Shown here: positions 2,798-21,984 of the stretch, one piece after another | Layout: the number at the start of each line of letters is the position of its first letter | Position numbering within the stretch: position 1 is the first letter of the stretch | Virus record (IMG/VR): IMGVR_UViG_3300031227_003906 | Coordinates: 1-21,984 of that record | DNA: 21,984 nt | Source: a virus | Direction: 5' to 3' (one strand) | Made by a program: the position numbers and the translations under genes | The notes under the pieces: generated by a model | What the model saw: the letters and a program-made list of their open reading frames with translations, nothing else | The model's database searches: none | What the model was told of the DNA's origin: nothing

Positions 2798-4804
2798 TTA
2801 TTCTAATACACTTAACCAGGTGCATCTACATGCTACGTGGACAGGTATTATTCCTCTACTTTCGTTTAATTCAAAAACCTGACCATTTAATGCTTCACAT
2901 TGAGGGCATGTTCTTTCAGATAAAGCTGCTAGAAATCTTACTTTTTGAATGTTGTTTTCTTTGTAAGTATCTAGTAGTCCTTCATTTGATAATCTTACTA
3001 CCTCAGTTCTTGCAATCATGTTCGGTCTTAATTTTGCTGCTGCAGTAATCTTACCATCTTTTAATCTATCTTTTAATGCTATTGAGCTGTCTATTTCTTT
3101 TTGTATATCGAAGATTGATTTGTTCTTTCTAAATGCATCCTTTAAAATTATTCTTAATTTGTTTATTTCTCTTTTATCCAACAGTCCATTTATTAGGTCT
3201 TGGTCTGTCATTGCTGCTAAGTCTGCAAAGCTATCTGTCTTGAGTCTCTTTAATATTCTAACTAAGTAATCTGAATAATTGAATCCTGCCATCTCCTTGA
3301 GATTTGTGAACTCTCTTATTGACATTATGCCACTCTGTGATTCAGTTAATTGTTGTCCACACCCACATCCAGGCATGTGCTTATTTTTAATTAACATTAA
3401 ATCATGACTTGCATTAGCTCCTGGTTTAGCTCCTGGTACTTCTGGTTGTTTTATTTTACTTTCTTTTTTTGCTTCTGGAGAGTCACTTGCTTTTGGTTTT
3501 TCTTCTTCTTTTGGTTCATATTTAAAATCATCTTCTTTATCTTTCTCAATTTTATCTAATCCTGGTTCTGGTGAAAGTAAGAATTTACTAGCATCATCAA
3601 AGTCTAATAGCTTTGCTAATTCTAATTGTAGCATTCTTTTCATGTTCTCACTTATTCCAAATGAGTTAAGAAGTTGCGTTACCTTTTCAATACGAGCGTT
3701 TATTTCGCTCTCTCCAGGAAGATTCCATATAAAGTTAGGATTTTCACTTGCTCCAACTGCTTTTTTATCTAATCCTAATGCATCACTATCTGGGAACTTT
3801 TGACTTAATAGTAGTGGTTTAATTACTTTTTCTTCAACTATGCTCTCTATTTCTTCTCTAATTGAACGAATAAACCTCTCAAAGTCTTCACTTTGTGCAT
3901 TTGCTAGTCCCTCTGCCACATTTGCTTTTCCTAATAAAACAACAGGAATATTTAATGATGTAGCCAAACTTTCTTTATCATATTCTAATGTACTAGTCAA
4001 ATTGTTTCCTATTCCAGCAAAGTCAATTAATTTCATTTCAATGTTACCATCTGTTACCCACTCTGTTTTGTTAGTCATGTATTGTAACTTAGCACTCATT
4101 GCTTCAATATCTTCTGTTTGAACTGATTCTCCTGGCTGTCCTATTTTAACATGAAGTGGCATCCCTGCTTTTCTAGTCATTAACTTGTGTAAGTCTTGCT
4201 CATTTTGAACTGTGTTAGTGATTGTTCTCTCAGATGGCCATATTAATCCTATTCCATAAGGTTCATTAGAAATCTTATTCATCTTTAAGTGAGCAATTTG
4301 ATTTGGTTTAAAATTTGTTAGTGAGGTGCTATTTCTATTGAAGCCATTAAGATTACCTAACCATTGATTGTATTCTTTGACCTTTCCTTTCTTGTCTCTT
4401 TTTACATACATGTTGTTTGCATTAAGAACTCTTACATTTGCATTCTCTAAGTCTAACTCCATGAATCCGTTACCTTTTAGTACTGCTTCTTTGACCCATT
4501 CTCTAAGAATGCTTGGAAAGTTAGTTGTATGTAAAAAATCATCAATAAATGCTTGAATGTTTTCATTGTCCACAGTTAGTTGAAAGTCACCAACAATTGC
4601 ATTTTTAATTTTATTAACAACACCATTAATTAGACCAATCTTCTTAAATGATTTCTCCATGTCCTCGAAGCTAAATGGGTGCACTGCTCCTAGTTCCTTT
4701 GGAAACTTTATCTCTTTGTCTAAGACCACTCCCTTAAAATTTTCATATATAGAAATATTTTTCTCTTGTTCACTTAATGCAATGTAACCTTTTACTTCAG
4801 CCAT
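2798..4804 (-). CDS. portal protein fused to a Mu gpF / SPP1 gp7-type domain
   Basis: A 668-residue fusion. Residues about 1-410 are a tailed-virus portal, the dodecameric ring through which DNA enters the head. Recognisable parts are the IAHLKMNKISNEPYGIGLIW region, the long stem-like helix before it, and the DFERFIRSIREEIESIVEE helix after the clip region. Residues about 413-472 are a Lys/Glu/Pro linker. A PGCGCGQQ patch follows near residue 480. Residues about 592-665 are a Mu gpF-type minor head domain: IARTEVVRLSNEG, then ERTCPQCEALNGQVF and IPVHVACRCTW, with a Cys/Cys and His/Cys/Cys pattern that may bind zinc. In most phages these are two genes. The ATG at 4804 lies about 25 bases from a TATA-like box and has no ribosome site, suggesting a leaderless message. 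Confidence 0.92.
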   Translation of the reverse strand: MAEVKGYIALSEQEKNISIYENFKGVVLDKEIKFPKELGAVHPFSFEDMEKSFKKIGLINGVVNKIKNAIVGDFQLTVDNENIQAFIDDFLHTTNFPSILREWVKEAVLKGNGFMELDLENANVRVLNANNMYVKRDKKGKVKEYNQWLGNLNGFNRNSTSLTNFKPNQIAHLKMNKISNEPYGIGLIWPSERTITNTVQNEQDLHKLMTRKAGMPLHVKIGQPGESVQTEDIEAMSAKLQYMTNKTEWVTDGNIEMKLIDFAGIGNNLTSTLEYDKESLATSLNIPVVLLGKANVAEGLANAQSEDFERFIRSIREEIESIVEEKVIKPLLLSQKFPDSDALGLDKKAVGASENPNFIWNLPGESEINARIEKVTQLLNSFGISENMKRMLQLELAKLLDFDDASKFLLSPEPGLDKIEKDKEDDFKYEPKEEEKPKASDSPEAKKESKIKQPEVPGAKPGANASHDLMLIKNKHMPGCGCGQQLTESQSGIMSIREFTNLKEMAGFNYSDYLVRILKRLKTDSFADLAAMTDQDLINGLLDKREINKLRIILKDAFRKNKSIFDIQKEIDSSIALKDRLKDGKITAAAKLRPNMIARTEVVRLSNEGLLDTYKENNIQKVRFLAALSERTCPQCEALNGQVFELNESRGIIPVHVACRCTWLSVLE

Positions 4805-4825
4805 GGATTACTAAATACTTAATCC

Positions 4826-4840
4826 TTTAAATATTTTGAA
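4826..4840 (-). promoter_or_regulatory. BRE/TATA-like promoter of the portal gene
   Basis: On the minus strand this reads TTCAAAA followed by TATTTAAA. The centre of the TATA-like octamer is about 25 bases before ATG 4804, the distance at which archaeal transcription normally starts, so the mRNA would begin at or next to the start codon. There is no bacterial -35 element at a suitable spacing and no Shine-Dalgarno site. It occupies the 67-base gap between the terminase stop and the portal start. Confidence 0.55.
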
Positions 4841-4871
4841 TAAAGTGGTATATACTCTGTTTTAGATATAA

Positions 4872-6215
4872 TTAAGCAATGTGTGGTCTGTAGCCGCCTT
4901 TTACTTCGAATAACATTCTCATCATTAGTGCATCTGAGAAGTCTGTACTTCTTCCTAGTTTTTCTTTCATCTCTTCCTTAGGTATTAATTCTATTTTGCC
5001 ATCTTTATCTATATTCTTTTGTGCTATTTGTTCTAGGTCAGCAATAATTAAATCTTTTATTTCTCCTGCAGCATCTCTATAGCATATTTTTCCAGCATTA
5101 ACATACTCTGCAAGTTTAAAATAACATTGTGCTTTTAAGTTCCCATAGTTGTGAAATTTTTTAGTGTGCTCTGTTTCTATTGCCTTAGAATTATTAATAA
5201 ATCCCTTACAGTTGGGAATGTAATCTACAACTCCCATTCCGCCAACACCATCATCATCAACAACTATGTTTGAATTGGGAACGCCATTAATTTTTGCTAA
5301 TTCTAATATGGCGCTCACCACCTCTGGTCCAGAGCTCTTAGCCATTACTTTCATCTGCTTGATTAAAAGTCCATGCCATACCATTATGACTGTTTTATCT
5401 AATCCAAATCTAGCCACATCGCAGGAAATGTATCTTTGTTCTTTTGGCGTATGATAATAATCATTTGTAAAGATGTCTATAATCTTATCATACTCAAATA
5501 ACTTACTTGGGTCATCATCATATTCAAAGTTACCATAAAGTAATCTTTCCTTAGTAATCCTATCAGCATTCTTTAATTGTTCAATATAAGATGGGTCTAA
5601 ATATGTATTGTCTGTTGCTAATGCAGTGATAAAAACTCTATGTTTAGGTAGTTTATTATCTTTAAATGGTTTATAATATCTATGATATACATGATTCTTA
5701 GATGGATTAAATGTTTCTAATAGCTTCGGTATTAAATTATACTCCTCATTCTTACCTCTACCTAATCTTGTTTTAATTATTTCAATTGATTGTAATTCGT
5801 TTTCATTTGATTCATCAATAAAGGCTCCAGTCAACTCTAGTCCACCAAATCTGGTATATAATGGGTCTGATGGTTGATAACTCATATCCATTAGAAATAT
5901 CATTGATTTATTCTTTAAATGAATCACATTTGTTTGAGAATTAAGGGTGAGTATATCATTAGGATTAATTTTCATAACATCTATAACTTTAAATAATGAC
6001 AACAAAGTAGTTTTCTTTAGATTAGTTAGTTCTCTTCTACCAATTAACCATGAAGTTCCTGGATAAGCTAAGGCTTGAGATAATATCCAGAAGCATCCAA
6101 TAAAAGACTTTCCTCCGCCTGCTGCTCCACCATAACCAATTTCAGTAGAAGTTGCATCAATTAGTGTCTTGTATGCTGTTGTCTGTTTCGCTGTTAGGTG
6201 AAACTCTGCTTTCAT
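4872..6215 (-). CDS. terL: terminase large subunit (ATPase and nuclease)
   Basis: A 447-residue DNA-packaging motor that drives viral DNA into the prohead and cuts the concatemer. The N-terminal ATPase has a Walker A loop GGAAGGGKS at residues 29-37 and a Walker B end GAFIDESNE with Asp134 and Glu135. The C-terminal RNase H-like nuclease shows its acidic residues in CDVARFG (Asp266), VVDDDGVGG (Asp320-322) and TDFSDALMM (Asp425, Asp428). Length and motif order are normal and the gene appears intact. The start at 6215 has GGTGATG upstream as a ribosome site and overlaps the small-subunit gene by 59 bases in another frame. It is the best marker of a tailed virus in this window and the best gene for placing it phylogenetically. 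Confidence 0.96.
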   Translation of the reverse strand: MKAEFHLTAKQTTAYKTLIDATSTEIGYGGAAGGGKSFIGCFWILSQALAYPGTSWLIGRRELTNLKKTTLLSLFKVIDVMKINPNDILTLNSQTNVIHLKNKSMIFLMDMSYQPSDPLYTRFGGLELTGAFIDESNENELQSIEIIKTRLGRGKNEEYNLIPKLLETFNPSKNHVYHRYYKPFKDNKLPKHRVFITALATDNTYLDPSYIEQLKNADRITKERLLYGNFEYDDDPSKLFEYDKIIDIFTNDYYHTPKEQRYISCDVARFGLDKTVIMVWHGLLIKQMKVMAKSSGPEVVSAILELAKINGVPNSNIVVDDDGVGGMGVVDYIPNCKGFINNSKAIETEHTKKFHNYGNLKAQCYFKLAEYVNAGKICYRDAAGEIKDLIIADLEQIAQKNIDKDGKIELIPKEEMKEKLGRSTDFSDALMMRMLFEVKGGYRPHIA

Positions 6216-6552
6216 TTGTCATCACCACCTTTATTTCAGTAACACCAATACTTCCAGAATGTTCTGTTTTAATATCCTTTTGTTCTACATATCCTCTAGT
6301 TTTGCCTTTGGTAGCTAATAAGAATTTTGTAGCTCCTAAATCTCTATCTGCTACTTGTTCAAATAAACTAGTTTCAGCCATATCTAATATCTTTTCAGTC
6401 TCTGATTTAACAATCTCTTTAGATTCTGGGTGTTTATCCATCCACTGATATAAACCTCTTCTGGTTACATGTATTCTATTAGCAATGGTAGTAATAATTC
6501 CACCACTGTCTAATGCTGCTTCTTTAAAGTTTTTAATGTTTATTTTTGCCAT
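6157..6552 (-). CDS. terS: terminase small subunit
   Basis: A 131-residue protein directly upstream of and overlapping the large terminase gene. Residues about 1-60 contain a helix-turn-helix of the terminase small-subunit kind: GGIITTIANRIHVTRRGLYQ followed by WMDKHPE. A helical stretch then runs to about residue 95 (ILDMAETSLFEQVADRDLGA), which would form the oligomer, followed by a polar tail. The protein would recognise the packaging site on viral DNA and regulate the motor. Its ATG has a purine-rich leader with no GGAGG but follows an AT-rich promoter region. Length is within the usual range. The call rests on the helix-turn-helix, the DLGATKFLLATKGKTRGY segment typical of these proteins, and synteny. 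Confidence 0.85.
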   Translation of the reverse strand: MAKINIKNFKEAALDSGGIITTIANRIHVTRRGLYQWMDKHPESKEIVKSETEKILDMAETSLFEQVADRDLGATKFLLATKGKTRGYVEQKDIKTEHSGSIGVTEIKVVMTNESRVSPNSETDNSIQDTN

Positions 6553-6648
6553 TTTACTTTTGCTTTCTTTGTTTTCTTTGTTTCCTTTGTATACTTTGTA
6601 TATATATCGTTTAATATATTTTAAGTTATATATTTATGAATATATACT
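6553..6648 (-). promoter_or_regulatory. AT-rich promoter and purine-rich leader of the terminase genes
   Basis: This 96-base gap has almost no G or C in its upstream half. On the minus strand it contains several TATA-like runs (GTATATATTC, ATAAATATATAAC, AATATATTAAA, GATATATATAC). The last is about 50 bases before ATG 6552, so transcription would begin some 24 bases upstream. The leader is a run of ACAAAG/AAAC-like purine-rich units. I see no clear bacterial -35 and -10 pair. Confidence 0.45.
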
Positions 6649-7131
6649 TTATTTCTTACTTAATGCTCTTTCTAAAGCTACAATACCATCTTCCATTATT
6701 GTGTAAGTTTGATTGAATCCTTTAAATTTATACTTCTTTGCTTTAATAAATACTTGTACTTTATGTCTATTAGTTAGATTTTCATCATTTCTTTCATGTT
6801 CATCTATTAGTTCAAAGTTCTTTAAATCTGAATACTTACCCCAATTAATCTTTATTGGTTTTATATCTTCTGGCTTAACAAATCCATTCTTTCTTAGTGA
6901 GACTAATGCCTCTGATTTATAGTGGTCATTAAAGTCTGCTCTTGCTACGTGAGCTGCAAATGGTATTCCTTTTTTGGTTGCTTCTTGTTCTTTCTCTACT
7001 AATTGCTTTTTAAATTGTGCTTCTACTGTTGCTTTGTTACCAATTAGTGAGACAAATCCTGTTGTATTGCCATCTATTCCTGGTGTTAAGTCTTTTTCTG
7101 CATCTGTTTGTGGTCTAATTATTCCTGCCAT
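6649..7131 (-). CDS. hypothetical protein (160 aa)
   Basis: A soluble, Lys-rich protein starting MAGIIRPQTDAEKDLTPGID. Its middle has a helical, charged segment (EAQFKKQLVEKEQEATKKG), and its C-terminal half looks alpha/beta, with a VQVFIKAKKYKFKGFNQTYT stretch. There are no Cys pairs or membrane segments. The start is supported by GGGAGG five bases upstream. It is the last gene of the small-gene operon before the terminase promoter, an area where genes for DNA processing or packaging regulation may sit. I do not recognise the family. Confidence 0.6.
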   Translation of the reverse strand: MAGIIRPQTDAEKDLTPGIDGNTTGFVSLIGNKATVEAQFKKQLVEKEQEATKKGIPFAAHVARADFNDHYKSEALVSLRKNGFVKPEDIKPIKINWGKYSDLKNFELIDEHERNDENLTNRHKVQVFIKAKKYKFKGFNQTYTIMEDGIVALERALSKK

Positions 7132-7271
7132 TTTACCTCCCTTCCATGATTGTCTTTAAAGTTAATTAATTGTTTTAATATTATTTCTAATTCTTTAGTT
7201 GATTTAAATTTCCAGGATTCACCATCTATGTTTAATCTCCATTCACCTTGAAACATTTTTATTGATATCAT
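7119..7271 (-). CDS. small hypothetical protein (50 aa)
   Basis: The protein begins MISIKMFQGEWRLNIDGESW and ends NHGREVKWQE. The first half looks like a short beta-meander (hydrophobic and aromatic residues alternating) and the second half is a helix, KSTKELEIILKQLINF. Its ATG overlaps the stop of the membrane-protein gene (ATGA), and its tail overlaps the next gene by 13 bases. The ribosome site of that next gene is contained in the Gly-Arg-Glu-Val codons of this one. Function is unknown; the compact overlaps are the main evidence that it is translated. Confidence 0.55.
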   Translation of the reverse strand: MISIKMFQGEWRLNIDGESWKFKSTKELEIILKQLINFKDNHGREVKWQE

Positions 7272-7429
7272 TTTGTTGTAATTAGTGTAAATAGAATTAA
7301 TATAACAAAATAAATTGTTAGTTCTACTACATAAGCTAATAAATTAAACCAAAAACTCATAAAAGGTTGTCCATTAAATATTAATGCAAATAGGTTTGCT
7401 ACTAATAATATTGTACTAATTGCCACCAT
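7268..7429 (-). CDS. small two-helix membrane protein (53 aa)
   Basis: The protein has two hydrophobic helices, about residues 3-18 (AISTILLVANLFALIF) and 30-51 (LLAYVVELTIYFVILILFTL). They are joined by a short NGQPFMSFWFN loop with Trp and Phe, and the protein ends ITTK. It would sit in the host membrane. The ATG overlaps the previous stop (TAATG) and its stop overlaps the next ATG (ATGA). Small two-helix proteins in tailed viruses are often holins or membrane disruptors, but no lysis enzyme is visible nearby. Archaeal viruses often lack classic holins, so that role is only a possibility. Confidence 0.6.
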   Translation of the reverse strand: MVAISTILLVANLFALIFNGQPFMSFWFNLLAYVVELTIYFVILILFTLITTK

Positions 7430-7728
7430 TAAATTACACCTGCTGGAGATTCTACTCCCTCTTTAAGTTGTCTTTCCATTTCTTTAATTGTGTTATTCTT
7501 TTCAGTTATCATGTCTGAGATTTGTTTTAATGTTTTTTCATCTGCTTCATCCTTTCTAGTTCTTAATGTTGTTCTCCATCTATCATCAAATTCTCTTAAG
7601 TATTTTTCTTTTTCTTTTAGGTCTTTATTATATTCTAGGCTTTCAGTTAATTCAACAACATCTATTGTTAATCTAAACATTCCTTTATTTGTTAGTTCCT
7701 TTTCTGTATCGTCTAATTGTCTTTTCAT
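7429..7728 (-). CDS. coiled-coil protein of unknown function (99 aa)
   Basis: Almost entirely helical and highly charged, starting MKRQLDDTEKELTNKGMFR. Residues about 30-90 carry heptad-like Leu, Ile and Met spacing between Glu and Lys (for example ITEKNNTIKEMERQLKEG). This suggests a dimeric or oligomeric coiled coil, similar in style to small phage scaffold or chaperone-like proteins. The ATG overlaps the upstream stop (ATGA) and the stop overlaps the next start (TAATG). No catalytic motif is seen, and I cannot name the family. Confidence 0.6.
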   Translation of the reverse strand: MKRQLDDTEKELTNKGMFRLTIDVVELTESLEYNKDLKEKEKYLREFDDRWRTTLRTRKDEADEKTLKQISDMITEKNNTIKEMERQLKEGVESPAGVI

Positions 7729-8024
7729 ATTAAATCTTTACCTACAAGTTTATCTATCATTTCATATAAGTCTTCAACATCAGGAGTAAAGCTTGGTGTT
7801 TGGTTAAAAAATCCAGCTTTAATCTCTGCTTTCAACAACTTAATAAATTCTTTAACCTCTTGTTTTCTAAATACTTCATCATCTTCACTACCTGCATAAT
7901 CTCCTTCCCTTATAGCTTCTTCACTTAAATTAAACTCAGGTAACTTTCCACAGTTTGTTGTTAAATCTAATTCTTCATTTGACATTGCATCATCCTCTAC
8001 AAAGTGGTGAGATTCTTTTGTCAT
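7725..8024 (-). CDS. acidic hypothetical protein (99 aa)
   Basis: A strongly acidic protein starting MTKESHHFVEDDAMSNEELD, with one Cys (TTNCGKLPEF) and a helical second half (VFRKQEVKEFIKLLKAEIKA, then VEDLYEMIDKLVGKDLI). The start is clear: GAGGTG lies five bases before ATG 8024 and the start overlaps the previous stop. The net negative charge could suit a DNA-mimic or regulatory role, but nothing specific supports that. It is part of a chain of overlapping small genes that begins at the promoter near 8220. Confidence 0.6.
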   Translation of the reverse strand: MTKESHHFVEDDAMSNEELDLTTNCGKLPEFNLSEEAIREGDYAGSEDDEVFRKQEVKEFIKLLKAEIKAGFFNQTPSFTPDVEDLYEMIDKLVGKDLI

Positions 8025-8185
8025 AGAAACACCTCATCTGTTAATTTAATTTGTTCATCAATTATCATTCTACAAAATTCATCTGGTTTAAAATCTGGAA
8101 ATTTATTAAAGAATTCTACTTGTCTAAAATGAAATCCAATGCATCTTTGCACTATTTTCTCCCTTGGTTCTACTTTTCTTCCCAT
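8021..8185 (-). CDS. small hypothetical protein, first gene of the small-gene operon (54 aa)
   Basis: The protein begins MGRKVEPREKIVQRCIGFHF and ends DEQIKLTDEVFL, mixing a basic N-terminus with an acidic C-terminus. The FFNKFPDFKPDEFCRMIIDE stretch looks helical. It is the first gene after a promoter-like element at 8211-8233 and has no ribosome site, so the message may be nearly leaderless. The stop overlaps the next ATG. A first-position small protein may be regulatory, for example a helix-turn-helix remnant, but no motif is strong enough to say so. Confidence 0.55.
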   Translation of the reverse strand: MGRKVEPREKIVQRCIGFHFRQVEFFNKFPDFKPDEFCRMIIDEQIKLTDEVFL

Positions 8186-8210
8186 ATGCAAGTTAATTAC
8201 TTAATTAGAG

Positions 8211-8233
8211 TACTTAAATGTTTCTATAAGTTA
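8211..8233 (-). promoter_or_regulatory. BRE/TATA-like promoter downstream of the glycan cassette
   Basis: On the minus strand it reads TAACTTATAGAAACATTT and then AAGTA. AGAAAC would be the BRE, and TTTAAGTA the TATA box, centred about 29 bases before ATG 8185. That predicts a transcript with a leader of only about four bases. The first 18 bases are identical to the element in front of the 18916-19134 gene, where the same spacing logic gives a leaderless start. It overlaps the stop of the 64-residue gene. Confidence 0.55.
8216..8233. repeat. 18-base direct repeat, copy 1 (of two)
   Basis: Plus strand AAATGTTTCTATAAGTTA, identical to 19161-19178 and in the same orientation. Both copies lie in promoter position before the first gene of a transcription unit, and between them is the whole glycan cassette. 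Confidence 0.75.
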
Positions 8234-8418
8234 ATATGCTTCTTTCCTTGACATATTTGCTTGTTTAAACTAGCTTTCTGCTCCGGAGTTAAACTTCTTT
8301 GAAAATTAAGAACAGCACTTTGTTCAATTGATATAATCTCTTTAGATTGAATTGTTATTTGTTTTATCCAACTTTCCTCTAAATCAATTCTACTATTTTT
8401 TTGGCTGTCTTCTGCCAT
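8224..8418 (-). CDS. small hypothetical protein at the end of the glycan cassette (64 aa)
   Basis: A helical, charged protein starting MAEDSQKNSRIDLEESWIKQ, with a later FQRSLTPEQKASLNKQI segment. Its ATG lies 40 bases inside the C-terminal codons of the split GT4 gene, in another frame, and no ribosome site is obvious. This lowers confidence in the start, although translational coupling is possible. The stop (TAG) overlaps the promoter-like repeat. I do not recognise the family, and it has no sugar- or methyl-transfer motifs, so its link to the cassette is by position only. Confidence 0.45.
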   Translation of the reverse strand: MAEDSQKNSRIDLEESWIKQITIQSKEIISIEQSAVLNFQRSLTPEQKASLNKQICQGKKHINL

Positions 8419-8987
8419 GTAAAATTATTGGCAGTTTTAATTGCCTCCTCTTTTCTACTCTTTAAATTTGATTGCGTTGCTGTTCTTAGTTTTAATTTTA
8501 ATTCTTCTATGTTTGGGGTCAACCATTTGATTCCCTCATATTGTAATTCGTGTTTAACTTCTTCTAGTTCTCCACTTATTATCCATCCATTTGTGTTATC
8601 AACAAAATCAGTTTGTCCTCCAAAGTCTGTAGTGATTACTGGTTTACCACAAGCCATTGCTTCTATCATTGGTATTCCAAAAGACTCTGCTCTAGTTGGA
8701 CACACAAATACATCAGAGTTATTATAGAGTTTAACTAGGTCTGAATAATTGTAGTTGTTTACATCAAATATAATCTTTGGTCCATCCTCATTGTAACCTA
8801 AATCTTTTAGTATTTGTTCTACATTTGGGATTCCATAAGCTGGATTAATCTTAACTAATAATTCTACATTCTCTTCTTTTGTAAATTCTTCTATAAAAGC
8901 TTTAATCAAATACTGAGTCCCTCCACGGTCTTCAAGATTACGAAATCCCTTATTAGCCAAAAAAACAAACGGTTTTTCAGATTTCAT
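8379..8987 (-). CDS. GT4 glycosyltransferase, C-terminal (nucleotide-sugar-binding) half of a split gene
   Basis: A 202-residue protein that forms the C-terminal Rossmann domain of a GT-B fold GT4 enzyme. It begins close to the domain boundary (MKSEKPFVFLANKGFRN) and carries the donor-binding core: CPTRAESFGIPMIEAMACGK, with the E-x7-E pair at Glu101 and Glu109. The acceptor-binding N-terminal domain is a separate gene at 9602-10083, and the homing endonuclease gene at 8977-9600 lies between. A ribosome site GGAG about ten bases before ATG 8987, inside the endonuclease tail, lets this half be translated alone. The two halves could reassemble as a split enzyme; whether they do is unknown. Confidence 0.85.
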   Translation of the reverse strand: MKSEKPFVFLANKGFRNLEDRGGTQYLIKAFIEEFTKEENVELLVKINPAYGIPNVEQILKDLGYNEDGPKIIFDVNNYNYSDLVKLYNNSDVFVCPTRAESFGIPMIEAMACGKPVITTDFGGQTDFVDNTNGWIISGELEEVKHELQYEGIKWLTPNIEELKLKLRTATQSNLKSRKEEAIKTANNFTWQKTAKKIVELI

Positions 8988-9600
8988 ATTCTATACTCTC
9001 CATAATTCCATCTAAGATTCCCTGATGTATTTTATAATTCTTATCTAAAAAACTTAATGCTTTTATCCTAAGAACTGTAAATCCTTGCTCTTCTAGTTCT
9101 GCAGTTCTTACTAAATCCATTGCTTTAGTTTTTGGTCTATTATGCCAATATTCTCCATCAATCTCTATAACAAGTTTTGGTTCAATAAAAATATCACATT
9201 GATAAGCATGTTTGATTTCTTTCATATACCTATGTTTTTTAAATTTGATTTTTCGTTTAGTAAGTTCTTGTTGTATTAGTTTTTCATGTTGGCTTTCATA
9301 AACTCTTTTTTGTTTTGCTCTTGCTGTTTTGATTTTCTCTCTATATTCTGGATTTTCTTTAAATAATCTCTTAATAGATTTGCTTATATTTTTTCTAGTT
9401 TCTAAAGATACTATTCTCCCTTTACCTCCAGAACCATTAGTATTTCCTTTTAGTGCAATTTTATTCTTTTCACTTATCTTTCTAGCCCTTTCAGGATTTT
9501 CAGAAATTCTTTTTACAATTGCATTAGTCTGACTAGTTAAACCTTTATTCCAGGGGATTGTTCCTTTACTTGGTGCCATAATTAAATCAATTGATTGCAT
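8977..9600 (-). CDS. Vsr-like (EDxHD-type) homing endonuclease inserted in a GT4 gene
   Basis: A 207-residue protein (200 if it starts at Met8). The N-terminus has a PSKGTIPWNKGL motif of the NUMOD3 type, a DNA-binding module of homing endonucleases. A Lys-rich helical region follows. Residues about 105-180 are a Vsr-related nuclease: HEKLIQQELTKRKIKFKKHR, then CDIFIEPKLVIEIDGEYWHN with Asp136, Glu146, Asp148 and His153, then LEEQGFTVLRIKAL. This matches the family that includes I-Bth0305I. It would cut an allele lacking the insertion and promote its own copying. It fills almost the whole gap between the two GT4 halves, leaving no room for a ribozyme. The stop overlaps the next start by 11 bases. 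Confidence 0.85.
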   Translation of the reverse strand: MQSIDLIMAPSKGTIPWNKGLTSQTNAIVKRISENPERARKISEKNKIALKGNTNGSGGKGRIVSLETRKNISKSIKRLFKENPEYREKIKTARAKQKRVYESQHEKLIQQELTKRKIKFKKHRYMKEIKHAYQCDIFIEPKLVIEIDGEYWHNRPKTKAMDLVRTAELEEQGFTVLRIKALSFLDKNYKIHQGILDGIMESIEYEI

Positions 9601-14153: not shown

Positions 14154-15385
14154 TTTTCAAATATGTAGACTTGTTCCTTATATAAAAAATTGTCTGGGGT
14201 TTTAATTAGTTTTAATCCTCTCTTTTCAAATTGTGATAGCCACCACTCTTCACTCTCTTTTATTATGTGAGTTGGGTCTATTTCTAATGCTGGATTTCCT
14301 ATAACTGGCACACTAATTAGAATATACTTTTTTGTTGATTCAATCATGTTATCTATTGCATGTCCTAAATCTTCATACTTCAAATGTTCTAGTACATCAA
14401 ATGCTACCACTAAATCTTTTGGATGCATTGTACCTTCTGTAATACTTCCTTGACTTACTCTTTCATGTAATCTATTCTTTACAGCGTATTCAGATAATTC
14501 CATTCCATAAGTATCTACTCCTAATTTATTCATAGTGTAAACTCTTTGTCCCATTCCACAACCATAAATCAAGCAAGTCTTTGGTTTAAAAAACTCTTTC
14601 CAATTGATTGCATCTTGATAGTGTTTAACTTCCATGTTCTCTCTTCCTTGAAAATATAATTTATCTCTACTCATTTGGAACTCATTTAAAATTGCATCTG
14701 GTAATTCTAGTGGATTAAATTGCTTTCTTGGATATAAATTAAATAGATGTTCGAAGTACCACTTGTCTAAATAATCTTTAGAATGTATTTTACTTTTGTT
14801 TAAATGGTTTTCGTATTTCTTTTTAATATTAAACATTCCATCAATGTATGATAGGTGCCAAATAACTAACTTACTTATTCCAATTCCTTTAGTTTGTGAT
14901 TTTGGAATTAATAGTGGATGTTCCTGCTCTGGGTATTTATCTACTTCACTTATTTTAAAAAATCTGTTTAAGACAAAGTGTGTTTCTTGAATGGAGTCTT
15001 CATAATTTAAATTTCCTATTAAATGTCTCATCTTTGGAGAATACACGCCAGGTTTAGCTTGATTAATAAATTTCTTAAATTCATTCATATTTTCTACCAC
15101 CTCATCTGGGTCACAAACAAGCATCCATTCGTTTGGAAAATGTTTTTTAGCATATTCTAAATATACATTTCTTGCCTTACCATTCATTCCCTTATTTTCT
15201 TGGTCATAAGGATTATTTATGATTATGAGTTTATCTTTAAATTTTTTTGCCCAATCGTCTAATTTTCTTTTAGTTTCTAAATCTTGTGCACCCCAAACAA
15301 AAATTATTTTATCTGCTTCTTTAACACTCTCAAAACTCATATCTATAAATTTTGCACAATAGTCTCCAATATATCCTATTATCAT
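14150..15385 (-). CDS. bifunctional GT2 glycosyltransferase-SAM methyltransferase fusion
   Basis: A 411-residue two-domain protein. Residues about 1-230 look like a short GT2-type glycosyltransferase: MIIGYIGDYCAKFIDMSFES at the start, IIINNPYDQENKGMNGKARN, then WMLVCDPDEVV with the metal-binding Asp92-x-Asp94. Residues about 265-400 are a class I methyltransferase: CLIYGCGMGQRVYTMNKLGV binds SAM, then VVAFDVLEHLKYEDLGHAID and KYILISVPVIGNPALE. The fusion suggests that one acceptor is glycosylated and then methylated by the same polypeptide, as happens in some capping steps of polysaccharide synthesis. The start overlaps the HNH gene stop by four bases. Confidence 0.8.
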   Translation of the reverse strand: MIIGYIGDYCAKFIDMSFESVKEADKIIFVWGAQDLETKRKLDDWAKKFKDKLIIINNPYDQENKGMNGKARNVYLEYAKKHFPNEWMLVCDPDEVVENMNEFKKFINQAKPGVYSPKMRHLIGNLNYEDSIQETHFVLNRFFKISEVDKYPEQEHPLLIPKSQTKGIGISKLVIWHLSYIDGMFNIKKKYENHLNKSKIHSKDYLDKWYFEHLFNLYPRKQFNPLELPDAILNEFQMSRDKLYFQGRENMEVKHYQDAINWKEFFKPKTCLIYGCGMGQRVYTMNKLGVDTYGMELSEYAVKNRLHERVSQGSITEGTMHPKDLVVAFDVLEHLKYEDLGHAIDNMIESTKKYILISVPVIGNPALEIDPTHIIKESEEWWLSQFEKRGLKLIKTPDNFLYKEQVYIFEK

Positions 15386-15831
15386 TTTTCATTAAGTTTA
15401 TGCAATTTAGTGTGAAAATCATTAGTCATAAGTTGTAAATTCTCAACCCTATTATCATCTCTTATTCCATTAATGTGATGAATTACACATCCTTTTGGTA
15501 GTCTATGAAGTTGATTAACTTTTAACCAAATTAAGTGGTGTTCTTGTATAAATCTTCCATTTAAATTAATAAACCTATAGCCTCTTGATTTATAATGTCC
15601 TTTTCCTTTACCTAACCAAAAAGGTTTCATTATTCCTTTTTCATATTTTCTTTTTAAAGTTTTTCCTATTTTTATTTTTCTTTGTTCATTAGTTTCTTTA
15701 GACATTTGTTGATTAATAGATATTCCTTTATTCCAGGCCTTTTGCCCTTTATGTGCTTCTGACATCTTCTTTCTATAATCTGAATTTTTCCAGAGTTCTT
15801 TTGTTTTACATCCCAAATTTATTTTTTCCAT
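15382..15831 (-). CDS. HNH homing endonuclease with NUMOD3-like N-terminus
   Basis: A 149-residue DNA endonuclease. Residues about 20-70 have repeated short basic motifs of the NUMOD3 kind (MSEAHKGQKAWNKG), used for DNA binding. Residues about 95-145 are the HNH core: QEHHLIWLKVNQLHRLPKG, then CVIHHINGIRDDNRVENLQL, then TNDFHTKLH. The paired His and the Asn in DDNRVENL fit the family. The start has GGAG seven bases upstream and overlaps the methyltransferase stop by 13 bases. Unlike the endonuclease at 8977-9600, it does not split a recognisable gene; both neighbours look complete. It is a free-standing mobile gene in the cassette. Confidence 0.88.
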   Translation of the reverse strand: MEKINLGCKTKELWKNSDYRKKMSEAHKGQKAWNKGISINQQMSKETNEQRKIKIGKTLKRKYEKGIMKPFWLGKGKGHYKSRGYRFINLNGRFIQEHHLIWLKVNQLHRLPKGCVIHHINGIRDDNRVENLQLMTNDFHTKLHKLNEK

Positions 15832-19178: not shown

Positions 19179-19457
19179 TTTATAGAAAACTTCACTGATA
19201 CTTTTAATTGATTCCTTTAAAATCTTCTTTGCTTTAACTAATTCATCTAATTGTTTTTGAATCTTCTTATTCTTTGGACGAAATATACTTTTGATTTCTC
19301 CTTGAGATTTTAGTAATTTAAAAATATCTATTATCTTTTTCTTTTCTAGTTCTAGTTTTTTTCTAACTAATTGATATTTAAAATTAGTTACTTTAATGCT
19401 GAATACCTCAACATCTGATATACTATGAACCAATGCTATTTTGATTATAATATCCAT
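19176..19457 (-). CDS. hypothetical helical protein (93 aa)
   Basis: Starts MDIIIKIALVHSISDVEVFS, then a long Lys/Glu/Leu-rich helix (LVRKKLELEKKKIIDIFKLL), then ELVKAKKILKESIKSISE. The first part may be a short beta hairpin and the rest a coiled coil. The start is backed by AAAGGAG four bases upstream, inside the HNH gene, and overlaps it by 35 bases. No family is recognised. Its last codons abut the glycan-operon promoter. It could be a partner of the HNH protein because they are translationally coupled. Confidence 0.55.
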   Translation of the reverse strand: MDIIIKIALVHSISDVEVFSIKVTNFKYQLVRKKLELEKKKIIDIFKLLKSQGEIKSIFRPKNKKIQKQLDELVKAKKILKESIKSISEVFYK

Positions 19458-19767
19458 CTAACTCCTTTAACTTATTAATTAAGTGATTGTATTTAAATCT
19501 ATCATGCTCTTGTAAGAATTTAATGAACCATAATCCATTTTTGTGTGCTGAGAACTTACCAAATTTATGATGTTTGGGACAAAGAATTATTCCGTTGTTT
19601 ACATCCCATCTGGTCTCCTTGAAGTTTCTTGGTATGATATGATGTGCATTAGGCCTTATGGTAGCTCCACAAATAACACACTTAAAGTTACAAGATTCTA
19701 ACACTAACTTTCTCCATTCCCTATCTTTTTTATTTCTCTCTTTCTTTTCTTGTTTTAATTTATTCAT
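19423..19767 (-). CDS. HNH endonuclease (114 aa)
   Basis: A small HNH nuclease: WRKLVLESCNFKCVICGA with two Cys, PNAHHIIPRNFKE with the HNH His pair, WDVNNGIILCPKHHKFGKFS with the Asn and the second metal-binding Cys and His. A Lys-rich N-terminal helix (KLKQEKKERNKKDREW) likely touches DNA. The layout is a normal Zn-binding HNH domain of the phage or McrA kind. The ATG follows the hairpin region with an 8-base gap and has no ribosome site, unusual here. It may be a free-standing homing or recombination nuclease. Confidence 0.85.
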   Translation of the reverse strand: MNKLKQEKKERNKKDREWRKLVLESCNFKCVICGATIRPNAHHIIPRNFKETRWDVNNGIILCPKHHKFGKFSAHKNGLWFIKFLQEHDRFKYNHLINKLKELDGYYNQNSIGS

Positions 19768-19775
19768 TTTAATAT

Positions 19776-19918
19776 AAACTTGGGAGCTCGAACATAAGAG
19801 GAATTTGCACTCTTACACTCCCAAGTTTGTTTCCCGGTTTGGACTTAGAGCGTGTAATGCTTTCACATTAACGAACCTATCCAATGAGGATGGCTGGAGT
19901 CTCATCAGCCTGCGATAG
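19776..19918 (-). ncRNA. candidate structured RNA with several hairpins
   Basis: The stretch has clearly more G+C than its surroundings and three strong hairpins on the minus strand. Hairpin 1 is CTATC/GATAG (19877-19881 with 19914-19918) around GGCTG/CAGCC. Hairpin 2 is CGT-TAATGT with a GAAA tetraloop and GCATTA-C-ACG at 19851-19873, the GAAA being of the GNRA class. Hairpin 3 is an 11-base perfect stem AAACTTGGGAG/CTCCCAAGTTT (19776-19786 with 19818-19828) with an inner TAAGAG/CTCTTA stem. It ends eight bases before the HNH start. It could be a riboregulator, an intron remnant, a processing or packaging site. No known family is recognised. Confidence 0.4.
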
Positions 19919-19990
19919 AAGCCCAAAGTATTCACACACACTCACTCTTCCTCTCTCATCGATACATCCCCTTACCCAGTTGATATTCAT
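19877..19990 (-). CDS. small reading frame, possibly a homing-endonuclease remnant (37 aa)
   Basis: The frame begins ATGA-coupled to the HNH gene stop and reads MNINWVRGCIDERGRVSV, then CEYFGLLSQADETPAILIG. The first segment loosely resembles a LAGLIDADG motif (hydrophobic-x-G-x-IDxxG), which would make it a fragment of a homing endonuclease. It overlaps hairpin 1 of the structured stretch. Coupling supports translation, but the length is small and the resemblance may be chance. Confidence 0.3.
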   Translation of the reverse strand: MNINWVRGCIDERGRVSVCEYFGLLSQADETPAILIG

Positions 19991-20184
19991 TTAAATTCAC
20001 CTGAGTGATATCTTTTGTGACACTTATTGCATAAGATTTTTACATTTCTATGCTCGTAAGTTCCACCCTCATTTCCTCTTCTAATTCTGTGAGCTTCTAA
20101 CTCACTTAACTCAAACTTCTTTTTACACTGCTCACAAGTAAAATCCACATATTCGCATAATAACTTCTTTTGTTTTTGATTCAT
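19987..20184 (-). CDS. small HNH endonuclease-like protein (65 aa)
   Basis: A 65-residue protein with an HNH-type zinc core: CEYVDFTCEQCKKKFELSEL, then EAHRIRRGNEGG, then HRNVKILCNKCHKRYHSGEF. The two Cys pairs would hold structural zinc, and AHRIRRG with HRNV supplies the His and Asn. I chose ATG 20184, whose ATGA overlaps the winged-helix stop, over a GTG nine bases upstream. It is short compared with classic HNH nucleases and may work as a nickase or DNA-binding factor. Confidence 0.8.
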   Translation of the reverse strand: MNQKQKKLLCEYVDFTCEQCKKKFELSELEAHRIRRGNEGGTYEHRNVKILCNKCHKRYHSGEFK

Positions 20185-20384
20185 TTTATCCACTTGAACT
20201 CAAATTGTTTTATATTGTAAAGATGATGTGTTCCCATTCTTCTTTCAACATAACCTAGTTTTAATAATTTTCCAATTGCAATTGTTACTGCGCTCCTACT
20301 TTGGTCTAACTCTATTGCTAGTCTTCTTATGCACATCCACTTGTCGTGTTTCTTTAGTAGTTGATATATTTCTTCTTGTCCCAT
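20181..20384 (-). CDS. winged-helix DNA-binding protein (67 aa)
   Basis: A compact winged helix-turn-helix: MGQEEIYQLLKKHDKWMCIR, then LAIELDQSRSAVTIAIGKLL as helix-turn-helix with the recognition helix, then LGYVERRMGTHHLYNIKQFE as the wing. The size and layout fit small archaeal or phage MarR/ArsR-like repressors. AAGGAG seven bases upstream of ATG 20384 supports the start. The gene overlaps the SWIM gene by 89 bases in another frame, both apparently real. It likely regulates viral transcription. Confidence 0.82.
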   Translation of the reverse strand: MGQEEIYQLLKKHDKWMCIRRLAIELDQSRSAVTIAIGKLLKLGYVERRMGTHHLYNIKQFEFKWIK

Positions 20385-20532
20385 TCACTATCTCCTTGAT
20401 GTGTTTACACACATTTTTTCCTTCTTTATAATTCCCAGGATATAGACTTCCAAATTGGCAAGTACACGTGATGTTACTATCTGTTACTTTCTGTACGTAC
20501 TTGCCAACTGAAAACCATTTACATCTTGACAA
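20296..20532 (-). CDS. SWIM-type zinc-finger protein, TTG start (78 aa)
   Basis: A small protein starting at TTG 20532 and reading (M)SRCKWFSVGKYVQKVTDS, then ITCTCQFGSLYPGNYKEGK, then NVCKHIKEIVNG. C-T-C and C-K-H give the CxC-xn-CxH pattern of a SWIM zinc finger, a domain used to bind DNA or proteins. GAGGAG seven bases upstream makes the rare TTG start convincing. It overlaps the OB-fold gene by 14 bases and the winged-helix gene by 89 bases. The C-terminal 27 residues (NISTTKETRQVDVHKKTSNR) are basic and may be disordered. Confidence 0.65.
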   Translation of the reverse strand: MSRCKWFSVGKYVQKVTDSNITCTCQFGSLYPGNYKEGKNVCKHIKEIVNGTRRNISTTKETRQVDVHKKTSNRVRPK

Positions 20533-21161: not shown

Positions 21162-21538
21162 TCGAAATCACCTCGTTTTGTATCTATTCCAAAATGCTTA
21201 TCTATTAATCTTAGTAAATCTTTTGCTTCTTGTACTGCCCAAATTTTATCTTTCTCAGTTGCTAAATTTTTTAAATTCATTGGTAGTCTTAATCCTATGA
21301 CCTTGCTTCTAAATTTCATTAGTCTATTCTTTAATTTTTGAGGTAAGCTTATTGGAATCTCCATATCAAATATGTGGTCTGCAGCCATGTAGAACCACAG
21401 GTCTGGTCTATTAATTATTTTGAGTGCGTCTTTTGCTTCTTTTGTTTTGGCAAATTCATCTTTAACTATGTAATCTCTTTCACTGTGGCATAAAAATAAT
21501 CCTAGACAGTATGTTAATCCTTTTCCAAATTCGCTCAT
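21158..21538 (-). CDS. hypothetical protein (126 aa)
   Basis: Mostly helical, starting MSEFGKGLTYCLGLFLCHSE, with DALKIINRPDLWFYMAADHI and a later VQEAKDLLRLIDKHFGIDTK helix. No transmembrane helix is convincing, although the first 20 residues are somewhat hydrophobic. The start is ATGA-coupled to the HNH gene upstream, and its stop overlaps the next ATG. I do not recognise the family. Such proteins in the early region of archaeal and phage genomes are often replication or host-takeover accessories, but nothing here says which. Confidence 0.6.
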   Translation of the reverse strand: MSEFGKGLTYCLGLFLCHSERDYIVKDEFAKTKEAKDALKIINRPDLWFYMAADHIFDMEIPISLPQKLKNRLMKFRSKVIGLRLPMNLKNLATEKDKIWAVQEAKDLLRLIDKHFGIDTKRGDFE

Positions 21539-21870
21539 CTTCTTGTCCCCTTCATGTGTTTAGGATTACCTTTTTGAGTTCTACTGTTCTTTCTTGATTC
21601 TTTTATTTCTGTTCCATGAACTTTGTCATGACAAGTTCTACATAAAGTCATTAAGTTCCTGTTAATATCATTTCTTGGGTTCTCATCAATATGGTGAGTT
21701 GTTAAGTTGTTAGTTGCTCCACAATTTACACATCGACTTACTAATAGTCTTTTCAATCTAAAAGGAATAACTTTTTTAATATTGCATCTATCACAACAGA
21801 TTCCTTCTGCTACTGGTTCAGCATTGTTACCAAATCCTTTTATCTTTTGTTTACAAAATATGCATTTCAT
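21535..21870 (-). CDS. HNH endonuclease with N-terminal zinc ribbon
   Basis: From ATG 21870 the protein begins MKCIFCKQKIKGFGNN, with a second pair at ICCDRCNIKK, giving a zinc ribbon. The HNH core follows: SRCVNCGATNNLTTHHIDEN, then NRNLMTLCRTCHDKVHGTE. The tail is basic (SRKNSRTQKGNPKHMKGTRR). An alternative TTG start at 21933 would add 21 residues but would overlap the end of the previous gene and has no ribosome site. The ATG has no Shine-Dalgarno site either, so the start is not settled. Likely a mobile or recombination nuclease. Confidence 0.82.
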   Translation of the reverse strand: MKCIFCKQKIKGFGNNAEPVAEGICCDRCNIKKVIPFRLKRLLVSRCVNCGATNNLTTHHIDENPRNDINRNLMTLCRTCHDKVHGTEIKESRKNSRTQKGNPKHMKGTRR

Positions 21871-21898
21871 ATAAATGTGGCAAGGATACCCAATCCTT

Positions 21899-21984
21899 TT
21901 AAGGTTGGGAGGAATTGCCACCACCTCCTTCAATTTCTTTTAAACTATTTTTCAATCCTCTTTTTACAAGACTTATACTCTCTT
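21899..21984 (-). CDS. C-terminal end of an unknown gene (runs off the window)
   Basis: An open frame enters from the right edge and ends at TAA 21899-21901. The visible tail is SLVKRGLKNSLKEI, then EGGGGNSSQP. A basic helix followed by a Gly/Ser-rich end is plausible for a real C-terminus, and the stop is 28 bases before the HNH start. With only 27 residues, no family can be named. Confidence 0.4.
   Translation of the reverse strand, partial: ESISLVKRGLKNSLKEIEGGGGNSSQP

Follow-up and report, generated by a model that had tools for sequence, protein, structure and literature searches.

The window analysed here, a stretch of 21,984 nucleotides, is the entire IMG/VR virus record IMGVR_UViG_3300031227_003906. 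It contains the terminase, portal and head genes of a tailed virus, and its genes, among them glycosyltransferase and methyltransferase-like genes, are carried on the minus strand. Two small HNH genes, HNH68 and HNH114, are co-oriented and both complete without splicing, and the Pfam matches (HNH at 19987-20193, HNH_2 at 19423-19767) agree with the earlier note in placing a G+C-rich island between two HNH genes. Three further nuclease-type genes, all on the minus strand, lie at 8977-9600 (DUF559), 15382-15831 (HNH_3) and 21535-21933 (HNH), giving the record a rich set of nucleases of the homing type. The features of the locus are as follows.

19987-20193, minus strand: HNH68, the small HNH gene that precedes the island (Pfam HNH, E 4.1e-08)
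19997-20002, minus strand: Shine-Dalgarno sequence AGGTGA for the ATG of the upstream repeat (duplex of -8.4 kcal/mol with the anti-Shine-Dalgarno core)
19984-19996, minus strand: upstream direct-repeat copy ATTTAAATGAATA, holding the HNH68 stop and an overlapping ATGA start (AAATGA)
19877-19990, minus strand: 37-codon frame, beginning at the upstream-repeat ATG and ending at a UAG stop inside hairpin B
19774-19983, minus strand: non-coding island of 210 nt between the direct repeats, most likely inserted; absent in the syntenic relative L002; the window's G+C maximum
19892-19910, minus strand: small hairpin GGCUG-AUGAGACUC-CAGCC (pairing probability 0.6-0.99 depending on the flanks; non-significant alone)
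19832-19890, minus strand: hairpin B, a long irregular stem with a GAAA tetraloop at 19861-19864, assessed by its fold against shuffles
19776-19828, minus strand: hairpin A, with 11-bp perfect arms (19818-19828 / 19776-19786) and an inner 6-bp stem (19810-19815 / 19795-19800)
19761-19773, minus strand: downstream direct-repeat copy ATTAAAATGAATA, holding the present ATG of HNH114
19423-19767, minus strand: HNH114, the gene of a small HNH endonuclease that follows the island (Pfam HNH_2, E 2.1e-07)

Using proteins of the island's neighbourhood as baits, we retrieved relatives of the virus from IMG/VR: L002/L004, a 43-kb contig with synteny to the window across most of the region (L002 being the nearest syntenic relative), L003 and L005, together with the more distant L020, which is without the operon. 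Scans of genome_contigs with the neighbourhood proteins returned no relatives. An archaeal host is plausible for this lineage; a sub-threshold PCNA match was found in L003.

Composition and folding of the island

The G+C content is 44.7% at 19776-19990 and 45.2% at 19776-19930, against 31.8% record-wide. Windows of 155 bases with a G+C content of at least 45.2% number 57, all of them starting within 19774-19836 and none elsewhere in the record, so the visibly richer composition noted earlier is confirmed. Elsewhere in the record, an A+T-rich intergenic stretch at 6553-6648 (17.7% G+C) has an unusually good fold on both strands (z about -4.3).

The whole island folds with z -2.6 on the transcribed minus strand versus -0.9 on the plus strand, and the most significant 100-nt minus-strand fold among the 438 windows scanned is that of 19751-19850 (z -4.0). 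Hairpin A reaches -22.4 kcal/mol (z -5.2, none of 200 shuffles as good), its pairing probability is near 1 whatever the flanking context, and its base lies 8 nt upstream of the HNH114 ATG. It is a perfect palindrome, and the plus strand also folds (z -5.5). In hairpin B, the closing stem comprises 6 bp (19855-19860 / 19865-19870) and 3 bp past a 1-nt bulge (19851-19853 / 19871-19873). The 61-nt form reaches -17.2 kcal/mol (z -3.25, 0/200 shuffles; a repeat run gave z -2.7, 2/200), and since the plus-strand form is non-significant (z -0.86), it is an RNA-strand feature of the minus, coding strand. The 11-base perfect stem with its second inner stem, the six-base GAAA-capped stem with three pairs beyond a bulge, and the assignment of the GNRA loop to the transcribed strand, all read from the letters in the earlier note, are thus upheld. 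The convincingly structured part of the island is roughly 19774-19890; at 19890-19990, folding is ordinary (z -0.1 for 19851-19950 and z -0.3 for 19901-20000) except for the small GGCUG/CAGCC hairpin. The ORF at 20296-20532 contains another hairpin with 11-bp perfect arms (20455-20507, z -3.35), whose 31-nt spacing is identical to that of hairpin A.

The gene junction and the leader reading

The two copies of the direct repeat, ATTTAAATGAATA and ATTAAAATGAATA, are identical at 12 of 13 positions, are spaced 223 nt apart and are located exactly at the two ends of the island. The repeat is A+T-rich and its chance level is 0.2-0.6%: 13-nt runs with one mismatch or none are found at 22 of 9424 pairs of ATGs up to 600 nt apart (~0.2%) and at 19 of 3222 pairs of ATGAs up to 1500 nt apart (~0.6%). 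Taken alone, it is suggestive of an insertion. In L002, both HNH genes have homologues (about 42-65% identity), which lie in the same order, overlap at ATGGTAA and have nothing between them. In the window, the strong Shine-Dalgarno sequence precedes the upstream repeat; the ATG from which HNH114 now starts has none (+0.8 kcal/mol; the median of the window's genes is -3.9 kcal/mol). Because a clear Shine-Dalgarno sequence is missing at many of the window's genes, the lack of one at HNH114 points only weakly to control. Combined, the repeat, the L002 junction and the displaced Shine-Dalgarno sequence make a persuasive sequence-based case for an insertion history, in which the island is most likely an insertion of ~223 bp (210 nt plus the duplicated 13-nt repeat) at the HNH68/HNH114 junction. 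Loss in the L002 lineage, rather than gain in the window, may alternatively account for the difference.

The reading that we tentatively favour, with a confidence that falls somewhat short of even, is that the island is a structured intercistronic leader in the HNH68-HNH114 mRNA, which would act in cis by lowering or delaying HNH114 translation. The two genes would originally have been linked by stop/start translational coupling, and the ~223-bp insertion in the overlapping stop/start junction would have duplicated its target and left the ribosome-binding site behind at the upstream repeat. The island would be transcribed within the mRNA of both HNH genes. Ribosomes loading at the old site would translate the 37-codon frame and terminate within hairpin B, and the HNH114 start, 8 nt past a very stable hairpin and lacking its own Shine-Dalgarno sequence, would be uncoupled. 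Given this position, HNH114 would be made less, later, or by reinitiation. The 37-codon frame has no match at E 10 in Pfam, PHROGs or solved structures, and no homologue of it was found; it is best seen as the frame that ribosomes initiating at the old site now enter. The plus strand holds another frame of 37 residues at 19805-19918. Hairpins A and B cover no ribosome-binding site, and the island could be no more than a neutral insertion. The suggestion that the island is a regulatory leader of the HNH gene stands as the one that fits the anatomy best (a hairpin 8 nt before a start without a Shine-Dalgarno sequence, and an ancestral-looking start with one 223 nt upstream). The regulatory part, a putative cis role, is read from that anatomy and from the analogy with T4-like leaders, because no homologue of the island was found among the collections searched.

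Hairpins are documented to control the endonuclease genes I-TevI, I-TevII, I-TevIII, segB and mobE, and for seg43(25) a stable hairpin is predicted whose position leaves the ribosome-binding site free (PMC2988022). The island shares with the T4-like leaders (I-TevI, segB and mobE of Aeh1; seg43(25) of Aeromonas phage 25) a stable hairpin directly before a small homing-type endonuclease gene in a polycistronic message, and with seg43(25) in particular a very stable hairpin that leaves the ribosome-binding site uncovered (PMC2988022). A same-strand gene of a homing endonuclease family lies directly downstream (HNH_2, E 2.1e-07), and the RNA hairpin is stable beyond chance (hairpin A). However, no ribosome-binding site lies between the hairpin and the ATG, and no internal promoter is known in the hairpin. 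A sigma-70 promoter scan gave nothing above chance, and sigma-70 may not be the promoter type of the host. The window's leader also differs in being insertion-like with direct repeats and in carrying a frame of 37 codons and a second hairpin, with a GNRA loop. The island therefore resembles a T4-type leader at best, as one defining feature fails (+0.8 kcal/mol at the ATG, with no ribosome-binding site after the stem).

The HEARO/OMEGA systems, in which an omega-RNA accompanies IscB, are similar in having a structured RNA of ~200 nt right before the gene of an HNH protein. In contrast to them, the island has no match to the HEARO model and HNH114 is a protein of 114 aa with a single Pfam HNH_2 domain. 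IscB is defined by its RuvC part. We rejected a HEARO/IscB omega-RNA because the covariance model did not match and HNH114 is too small to hold a RuvC part.

If the leader reading is true, a recent insertion has broken the translational coupling of a nuclease gene and given it a structured leader, and a control strategy like that of T4-like endonucleases would extend to tailed viruses, probably archaeal, of a lineage that has been little studied.

Searches for related RNAs and alternative explanations

Comparison with Rfam models, proposed as a check when the island was first described, yielded no family for the 281-nt island stretch even at E 10, group I and group II introns and HEARO included. 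Rfam against the window at E 1 gave nothing relevant; a SNORD93 match elsewhere in the window was far below its cut-off. A blastn search of the island against phages and plasmids returned nothing meaningful, the IMG/VR pattern scan with the GGCUG hairpin gave one match, a chance coding one, and no similar RNA was found upstream of the HNH114 homologues in L007-L012. Hammerhead, box C/D and GAAA-receptor patterns, sought by eye, gave no convincing match. A tRNA or tRNA-like identity of the island was rejected, as RF00005 at E 10, ARAGORN and a permuted tRNA search found no tRNA in the window.

The island could be a purely DNA-level insertion, the remnant of a mobile element or a non-autonomous one, that generated a 13-bp target duplication and whose hairpins are element ends with no viral role. 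We judge this unlikely. The flanking direct repeats, which would be a MITE-like target-site duplication (12/13, with comparable runs at 0.2-0.6% of start-codon pairs), the absence of the island in L002, a base composition unlike the rest of the record, and the palindromic hairpin A that folds on the other strand as well are all consistent with such an element. However, its terminal inverted repeats are non-significant, since 1226 of 3111 random 210-nt segments score equally well; the further copies expected of a MITE-like element were not found elsewhere in the record or in the phage, plasmid and viral collections; and hairpin B and the whole island favour folding on the coding strand. The same strand-specific folding argues against a DNA signal, and the packaging signal that the earlier note had listed, for which no specific evidence was found, is not supported. 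The direct repeats and the GNRA loop also fit a decayed intron or ribozyme, whether of group I, of group II or of the archaeal bulge-helix-bulge type, as precise removal between the repeats would recreate the ancestral-looking overlap of HNH68 and HNH114, and the start of the 37-codon frame, MNINWVRGCIDERGRVSV, recalls by eye a LAGLIDADG motif. However, the LAGLIDADG identity was rejected for want of family support in Pfam, PHROGs or structures, no Rfam model of an intron or a ribozyme matches at E 10, and the genes on either side are intact without splicing. The intron or ribozyme remnant suggested earlier is therefore highly improbable.

The relatives contain non-coding islands of their own, none of which reaches the cut-off of the tRNA model:

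L002, 4414-4540, plus strand: tRNA-Gln-like island (fold z -3.2; tRNA model 25.5 bits, below cut-off)
L003, 5235-5655, plus strand: non-coding cluster with several tRNA-like cloverleaves missed by ARAGORN; the G+C maximum of the L003 record
L005, 2740-2905, plus strand: tRNA-like cloverleaf (tRNA model 18.3 bits) followed by a 10-bp perfect GGGAG/CTCCC hairpin; z -3.2

The L002 element has a permuted order (T-arm, GUAA-capped acceptor-like stem, D-arm and UUG anticodon arm) enclosed by a CCCCCCC/GGGGGGG helix, and ARAGORN calls it a tRNA-Gln only once it is rearranged and given a made-up variable loop. The first element of the L003 cluster resembles it at the ends (CCCCCTCCTTGACA ... GAGGGGGATTCATA). 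The L005 cloverleaf has a good acceptor stem and T-arm with no space for a variable loop, and the loop of the adjoining 10-bp hairpin can pair with a downstream AAAGTTAC.

These islands bear on the reading in which the window's island is a stand-alone viral non-coding RNA, their counterpart, that would be released from the operon transcript and act in trans, for instance by binding a protein or as a decoy resembling a tRNA. We regard this as rather unlikely. These three relatives, all with the neighbouring orf126 gene, each bear a structured non-coding island near the corresponding genes, in each case G+C-rich or structured as in the window, and TTGGGAGTGTA is common to hairpin A and a tRNA-like element of L003. 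However, the relatives' islands have T-arms and acceptor-like stems, whereas the window gives no match to the tRNA model and the window's island has no significant similarity to theirs by local alignment (best 31/1000 shuffles). A single-sequence covariance model of the island, searched against nine viral records, those of the relatives in full among them, found only itself; unfiltered, it gave weak matches in L003 and in the island of L005, the latter of 12 bits. A cloverleaf-like alternative fold of 19840-19927 has a pairing probability of about 0.7 without the 5' flank and is lost with the full 5' flank; we did not adopt it because it depends on this trimming. Broader still, related, probably archaeal, tailed viruses might each insert a different structured or tRNA-like island in the same HNH/regulator block, forming a new mobile family of structured viral RNAs of which the window's would be the non-tRNA, stand-alone version, a proposal that we consider quite improbable. 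If the stand-alone RNA reading is true, the gene block of this lineage is a place to seek unknown viral RNAs, the tRNA-like elements of the relatives included. The L003 record also carries, at 2913-8600, PTPS/QueD-like, QueE-like radical SAM, GTP cyclohydrolase I and QueC genes of the 7-deazaguanine pathway, together with an RNA ligase gene.
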